Assembly (NCBI RefSeq): GCF_003544835.1
Contig: NZ_CP032099.1
Location: 1 to 64,000, forward strand
DNA from: Aliarcobacter skirrowii CCUG 10374
GTDB lineage: Bacteria > Campylobacterota > Campylobacteria > Campylobacterales > Arcobacteraceae
Length of the DNA stretch: 64,000 bases
Direction: 5' to 3'
This document shows, piece by piece, positions 1,328 through 2,532 of the stretch; the first letter of the stretch is position 1, and each line of letters starts with the position of its first letter. The notes under the pieces are model-generated. The model was given only the letters and a program-made list of their open reading frames with translations. It had not been told where the DNA came from and ran no database searches. The position numbers and the translations under genes were made by a program.

Positions 1328-1461
1328 TGTGAAAAGATGTGAATATGTTTTTAGTTTTATTCACTATCTCAAAGTGTTATTTATTGGCTCTTTGAACTAT
1401 ATTTTCATCTTTTCACATAGACTACTACTAATACTAAAAAAATAGAAAAATAGGAGAACAA
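1328..1461 (+). other. Origin-like region with DnaA boxes and DnaA-trio
   Basis: The dnaA-dnaN spacer holds several sequences like the epsilonproteobacterial DnaA box TTTTCACA: TGTGAAAA at 1328-1335 and TGTGAATA at 1338-1345 (both reverse orientation), TTATTCACT at 1357-1365, and TTTTCACA at 1410-1417. The last box is followed after four bases by CTACTACTAATACTA (1422-1436) and then an A-rich run. On the other strand this is a string of TAG/TAT triplets, the arrangement called a DnaA-trio, which in Bacillus subtilis guides DnaA onto single-stranded DNA. I infer a DNA-unwinding site here, like the downstream half of the bipartite Helicobacter origin. The dnaN leader overlaps it. Confidence 0.7.
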
Positions 1462-2532
1462 ATGAAGTTGGTAATAAACAAACAAGTTTTAGAAAATGTT
1501 GTTAGCTCAATGCAACCTTTTTTAGAGAAAAAAGATTCAAGTGCAATTACTTCACATATCTATCTTGAAATTTCAAATAATAGATTAATTGCAAAAGCAA
1601 CAGATTATGAAATTGGATTTGAAACTTTTGTAGAAAATATATCAAACTTTGAAGATGGAAAAACAACTGTAAATGGAGTTAATTTATTAAGTTTTATTAA
1701 AAGATTAAAAAATGAAGATATAACTTTAGAGACTACTTCTAATAATCTTGTAATTAAACAAAATAAATCAGTTTTTAAACTTCCTACTTATGATGCAAAT
1801 GAATTTCCAACAATAAACAGATATGAAAATCTAAAAGAGTTATCAATATCTATGTTAAATTTTATTAACTCTATTAAAAAAATTTCTCCAGCAATAGATA
1901 CAAATAATCCAAAATTTGAGTTAAATGGTGCATTAATTGATATTAAAAGTCAAAAAATAAACTTCTGTGCAACTGATACTAGAAGATTAGCTTTAACTCA
2001 TTTAGAAAATATATCAAATAGTGAAGCTCAATTAATAATTCCAAAAAAAGCTATATTTGAAATTCAAAAACTATTTTTAGATGATGCAAAAATATCTTAT
2101 GATAATACAAATTTAGTAATTTCAAATGAAAATAGTATCTTCTTTACAAAACTTATAAATGGAAAATATCCAGATTATGAAAGAATTATTCCAAATAATT
2201 TAAAATATAATCTTTATATTCCTAAAAATAGTGTGGTAGAATCAATAAAACTTGTAACTTCATTATCTTCAAATGTAAAAATATCTTTTACTCAAAATGC
2301 TATTTTATTTGAATCACTTGATGAAGATAGTGTAGCAAATACTCAAATTGATCTTGATTTAAATGTTGAAAAAGATTTTTATGTTGCAGTGAATGCTAAA
2401 TATCTTTTAGATTTTTTTAGTATGTCAAATAGTGAAAAGATAAAAATAGGATTTAATGAATCAAATCTACCATTTTATTTAGAAGATGGTAAGTTTATAA
2501 CAATTGTAATGCCAATTGTATTAGAAAAATAA
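1462..2532 (+). CDS. dnaN: DNA polymerase III beta subunit (sliding clamp)
   Basis: This is the ring-shaped processivity clamp that holds DNA polymerase III on DNA and recruits other replication and repair enzymes. Its 356 residues are near the usual length and contain three clamp domains. The C-terminus ends in a pattern typical of the clamp peptide-binding pocket (ITIVMPIVLEK). The ATG is preceded by TAGGAG at a good distance. It sits in the conserved dnaA-dnaN-gyrB order, with gyrB 18 bases downstream, so the two are probably co-transcribed. Confidence 0.97.
   Translation: MKLVINKQVLENVVSSMQPFLEKKDSSAITSHIYLEISNNRLIAKATDYEIGFETFVENISNFEDGKTTVNGVNLLSFIKRLKNEDITLETTSNNLVIKQNKSVFKLPTYDANEFPTINRYENLKELSISMLNFINSIKKISPAIDTNNPKFELNGALIDIKSQKINFCATDTRRLALTHLENISNSEAQLIIPKKAIFEIQKLFLDDAKISYDNTNLVISNENSIFFTKLINGKYPDYERIIPNNLKYNLYIPKNSVVESIKLVTSLSSNVKISFTQNAILFESLDEDSVANTQIDLDLNVEKDFYVAVNAKYLLDFFSMSNSEKIKIGFNESNLPFYLEDGKFITIVMPIVLEK

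Follow-up and report, generated by a model that had tools for sequence, protein, structure and literature searches.

The closest described counterpart of the locus studied here is oriC2 of Arcobacter butzleri, the spacer between dnaA and dnaN. In a P1 nuclease study of A. butzleri, W. succinogenes and S. denitrificans, Jaworski et al. (2016; PMC5043019) saw DnaA-dependent opening of this spacer alone, with none upstream of dnaA. The same work reported footprinted boxes and a DnaA-trio for all three species, defined the box consensus HTWTTCACW by footprinting in A. butzleri, and captured DnaA-mediated looping of the two halves of the A. butzleri origin by electron microscopy. In H. pylori, triplets are required for melting (PMC8235120). 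Most bacterial origins are predicted to contain the BUS / DnaA-trio system. Its trio rule calls for a row of three or more NAN triplets, with 3'-GAT-5' preferred, at 0-16 nt from a box. A GC-rich stretch between box and triplets is common in the BUS but not obligatory, and C. jejuni has a box-triplet spacer without it.

We analysed a stretch of 64,000 bases from Aliarcobacter skirrowii (the window). Its base 1 is the first base of dnaA and base 1 of the complete 1,969,846-base chromosome. From sequence and from the relatives, we infer that the dnaA-dnaN spacer is very probably oriC2, the half of a bipartite chromosome origin that DnaA unwinds. An earlier note on this DNA had placed the melting site downstream of dnaA, an inference that is right and is supported by conservation and by P1 mapping in relatives, but one already established in the close relative A. 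butzleri in 2016. The locus thus extends a published origin mechanism to a further species and is a well-conserved but ordinary example of it. The elements that appear to be new are modest comparative details (a half-site conserved as strongly as the main box, the order of the boxes, a relaxed fourth triplet and Thr178 of DnaA), part of which may already show in the epsilonproteobacterial trio alignment of Figure S8 in PMC8235120.

Organization of the dnaA-dnaN spacer

The dnaA gene (1-1311, + strand) is a 436 aa ORF, and dnaN, encoding the DNA polymerase clamp, is an ORF at 1462-2532 (+ strand). Nearly all relatives likewise have it downstream of dnaA; in L158, the one Helicobacter-like genome sampled, the two genes are not adjacent. 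The main DnaA box, CTTTTCACA (1409-1417, + strand), is of R1 type, is an exact match to the consensus and, as in A. butzleri, is oriented toward the triplets, on the side of the predicted melting site. Its 8-mer TTTTCACA (1410-1417) is followed by the 4-nt spacer TAGA (1418-1421), the DnaA-trio run CTACTACTAATACTA (1422-1436, + strand) and an A-rich run ahead of the dnaN ATG at 1462; the coordinates that the earlier note gave are all exact to the base. The run reads CTA CTA CTA ATA CTA, so that the bound strand would be 3'-GAT GAT GAT TAT GAT-5'. With four GAT among its five NAN triplets, 4 nt from the box, the run agrees with the BUS rule.

The earlier reading of five DnaA-trio-type triplets is correct; strictly taken, triplet 4 (ATA; bound strand 3'-TAT-5') has the central A but lacks G or A as its first base. 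Order and side are those of B. subtilis, but TAGA is not GC-rich (one G/C in four bases), and the box adjacent to the triplets is the better match. The likeness to the B. subtilis BUS (boxes 6/7 plus DnaA-trios) otherwise extends to a box with a candidate second box in tandem, a short spacer, 3'-GAT-5'-type triplets and the dnaA-dnaN location (PMC8287927, PMC10721633). The box core differs (TTCAC in A. skirrowii, TCCAC in B. subtilis), and there are five triplets here, the fourth relaxed in relatives. With A. butzleri oriC2 (PMC5043019) the locus shares gene order, box consensus and spacer boxes; there, melting and the DnaA-trio come from experiment and report, whereas A. skirrowii is a different species, known here from its sequence, and individual triplets vary among the relatives.

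Three further sequences that had been called box-like are each full matches to the A. butzleri consensus. Two are in reverse orientation, CTTTTCACA (1328-1336, - strand) and ATATTCACA (1338-1346, - strand), and the third, TTATTCACT (1357-1365), is on the + strand. Across 78 family spacers, their mean commonest-base frequencies are 0.93, 0.92 and 0.82, respectively. Within the spacer, the 26 bp of lowest stability are 1428-1453, the predicted melting region, which a nearest-neighbour calculation puts at the 98.3rd percentile of the window. The A-rich DNA adjoins the dnaN ribosome-binding site and leader (1451-1461, + strand; AGGAG ahead of the ATG, 0.79 conserved), and its A-richness is partly explained by this leader.

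Chance expectation

Over the whole window, HTWTTCACW occurs 27 times against 23.8 expected, which is chance level. Single boxes thus carry little weight, but the cluster of four within 90 bases of the spacer (1328-1417) does carry weight. The sequence CTACTACTANTACTA occurs once in the genome, and the box with the exact five-triplet pattern is absent from 3 Mb of first-order Markov sequence. For a looser pattern (box, 2-8 nt and three CTN), the chance expectation is 0.02 matches per 64 kb. The loosest literature rule (box, 0-16 nt and five NTN triplets) gives 1.6 chance matches per 64 kb, and is therefore weak, non-discriminating evidence when taken alone. The strong evidence for the trio is its conservation, not the loose rule.

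Conservation in the Arcobacteraceae

We gathered dnaA-dnaN spacers from genomes of the genus, family and class; DnaA was found in 96 of the 99 family genomes. The pattern TTTWCATCTWTTCACNNN{2,5}CTACT, which runs from the tandem box into the triplets, is present once each in 84 of the 99 Arcobacteraceae genomes, and its reversed control has no match in the same 99. Conservation of the triplets among close relatives, which the earlier note had set beforehand as a test, is borne out across the spacers of the family.

In 78 aligned family spacers, which include many close relatives and therefore count non-independent events, the half-site TTTTCATC next to the main box carries 1.79 bits per column, TTTTCACA 1.82 and the 4-nt spacer 0.64. 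Triplets 1-2 carry 1.89, triplet 3 1.10, triplet 4 1.23 and triplet 5 1.90, against 0.55 in the middle of the dnaA-dnaN spacer. The box and triplets 1, 2 and 5 are thus among its best-conserved bases (commonest-base conservation is 0.96 for the main box and 0.58 for TAGA). Of the 78 spacers, 70 have 4 nt between box and triplets, and 5 have 5 nt. The central T of triplets 1-5, equivalent to the central A of the bound strand, is found in 76, 78, 67, 41 and 76 spacers, and triplet 4 is CCA in 37. On these alignments, the box, the spacer length and triplets 1, 2 and 5 are strongly conserved across the family, and triplet 4 and the sequence of TAGA are free.

In a few loci (L226/L108, L073, L234, L148), one extra base splits the triplet run (CTACTA-T-CTACTACTA; CTACTACTA-T-CTACTA; CTACTACTA-C-CTACTA). 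An extra base at this place would break the three-base register of a DnaA oligomer.

A half-site in tandem with the main box

The earlier list of boxes lacked TTTTCATC (1402-1409, + strand), a weak box-like half-site that directly abuts the strong box and is conserved to the same degree (0.97 in the 78 family spacers); the pattern present in 84 of the 99 genomes includes it. It is off consensus, but matches the box at 6 of 8 positions, in the same orientation and at an 8-bp pitch. We consider it a candidate low-affinity DnaA box, comparable to B. subtilis box 6 or H. pylori ts1. In the H. pylori ts1-ts2 and DnaA-trio arrangement, too, a weak distal box abuts a strong proximal box and about five triplets follow (PMC8235120), although ts1 is TCATTCCAT where A. 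skirrowii has TTTTCATC, and the H. pylori spacer is GC-rich.

Another protein may have kept TTTTCATC in place, such as the orphan regulator HP1021/Cj1608/CemR, a reading that is compatible with a melting site at this position. In H. pylori, the weak box ts1, which corresponds to TTTTCATC, is overlapped by a site for HP1021 (PMC8235120), and DMS footprinting detected no double box in A. butzleri, although its authors warn that weak boxes are easily missed by this method. The 6/8 match, orientation and pitch speak for DnaA instead, as does the presence, in most families of the class, of a second box in tandem at this position. We therefore regard a role for a protein other than DnaA as rather unlikely.

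A tandem box pair and triplets precede dnaN in most of the other Campylobacterota sampled. Taking box strength as sequence similarity to TTTTCACA rather than measured affinity, the better-matching box is the triplet-adjacent one in 72 of 78 Arcobacteraceae spacers and the distal one in 26 of 37 class spacers outside the family. Divergent spacers (e.g., L066, L106, L108, L111, L139, L140, L142) were placed by a stricter box-trio rule, and for six class rows the labels used on the tree were assigned by eye. On a quick DnaA tree with several long branches, the box-order states need three changes. These would fit the branch to the Arcobacteraceae, a deep group inside the family (G036-G039) and the H. 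pylori-like row, whose boxes follow the ts1-ts2 order known from publication.

We tentatively suggest, as a possibility that we rate at somewhat below even, that the Arcobacteraceae use a variant module. In it, a conserved low-affinity (perhaps ATP-only) TTTTCATC would lie distal to the strong box, the reverse of most of the class, together with a DnaA that has Thr at the Ile190 position and with tolerance of a broken fourth triplet. The difference in box order between the Arcobacteraceae and most of the class, set on the DnaA tree, offers a natural experiment for asking how DnaA passes from tandem boxes to single-stranded DNA.

DnaA protein

A cryo-EM complex of B. subtilis DnaA defines the residues that capture the triplets (PMC10721633). 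We aligned A. skirrowii DnaA to the B. subtilis protein of PDB 8btg, and the corresponding residues are N175, L181, R190, K210, E211 and E216, with R252 as arginine finger. Most of the residues that contact ssDNA in B. subtilis are thus present. For the set N187, I190, I193, R202, K222 and E228, the A. skirrowii protein has kept or similar residues at N175, L181, R190, K210 and E216, and I190 is replaced by T178. Thr occupies this position in 59 of 63 family DnaAs and in 10 of 23 others.

The B. subtilis variant I190A gives no strand separation, and Thr178, like the low GC content of TAGA, counts against the oriC2 reading. However, A. butzleri DnaA melts oriC2 in vitro, and thus Thr178 is probably compatible with function, provided that the A. 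butzleri protein also has Thr.

Origin position and bipartite layout

Local GC skew within the window swings with gene strand, and for this reason stretches were sampled genome-wide. The cumulative skew, a noisy curve from forty 20-kb stretches (about 40% of the genome), is lowest at the end of the record (about 1.95-1.97 Mb) and peaks near 0.89 Mb. The minimum lies beside dnaA, where the earlier note expected it, and the skew fits an origin at this gene.

The opposite end of the record, just upstream of dnaA, has five forward HTWTTCACW boxes within 98 bases (L032, 2651-2748). The whole 2,847-base stretch L032 holds six boxes against 1.04 expected, a number reached in none of 200 shuffles. The five boxes share a single orientation, as do those of A. 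butzleri oriC1. Box clusters therefore lie on both sides of dnaA, five boxes upstream (oriC1) and four at 1328-1417 (oriC2), which is the bipartite epsilonproteobacterial layout. The earlier note had also considered melting confined to the region upstream of dnaA; the published P1 data from the same genus and class place unwinding in the dnaA-dnaN spacer instead (PMC5043019).

By analogy with the relatives, from which its steps are taken, initiation in A. skirrowii would begin with DnaA binding the double-stranded boxes of the dnaA-dnaN spacer. An ATP-DnaA oligomer could then extend from the tandem pair TTTTCATC-TTTTCACA, in which the role of the half-site is our own inference, onto the strand complementary to CTACTACTAATACTA (lower strand, 1422-1436). 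By capturing two bases per triplet, the oligomer would stretch this strand, and the A-rich stretch at about 1428-1450 would open so that the helicase can be loaded. The divergent boxes at 1328-1346 and the forward oriC1 boxes upstream of dnaA probably serve DnaA looping of the two halves. The features on which this scheme draws (sequence, uniqueness, conservation, spacing, DnaA residues and skew) are direct observations.

Other readings of the spacer

The conserved block sits in the dnaN leader, with the A-rich run abutting the ribosome-binding site, and could in principle be a regulatory or transcription element of dnaN (a promoter or leader RNA) rather than a melting site. We consider this very improbable, given that conservation falls on the box and on triplets 1, 2 and 5 with free bases between, that melting maps to the dnaA-dnaN spacer in relatives, and that the + strand has no promoter-like site in 1250-1500. 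A promoter or terminator reading was rejected, as no terminator was identified in addition to the lack of a + strand promoter-like site in that interval.

Equally improbable is a divergent second unwinding module made of the boxes at 1346-1328 and a minus-strand CTACTTCTTCTACTCCTTATT (about 1320-1300): 1309-1346 and 1399-1436 do form a 38-nt, 71% inverted repeat with the mirror pattern present, but the minus-strand triplets overlap the dnaA 3' end and keep neither their phase nor their distance in even the nearest relatives (L003, L004, L006), and published melting in relatives is in the dnaN-side AT-rich region (PMC5043019). The mirror-image trio was rejected as present but not conserved; the two reverse boxes are conserved.

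Several relatives (L013, L016, L023 and others) have an AT-rich inverted repeat, CTTTAAAAC...GTTTTAAAG, in the first 30 bases past the dnaA stop, between dnaA and the reverse boxes. It is absent from the A. skirrowii window. The 3' end of dnaA (1296-1311 in the window, and family loci) contains a conserved AAGGAG (AATAAGGAGTAG / AATAAGGAGTGGTAA) that resembles a ribosome-binding site, with no ORF evident behind it. Two public genome records titled Helicobacter pylori and Desulfosporosinus (L067, L069) have an Arcobacteraceae-like dnaA region and look like mislabelled or contaminated metagenome bins. The two dnaA-dnaN regions of one further bin (G042; L234, L235) differ, one of them being Arcobacteraceae-like and the other grouping with Sulfurovaceae; this bin is probably mixed.
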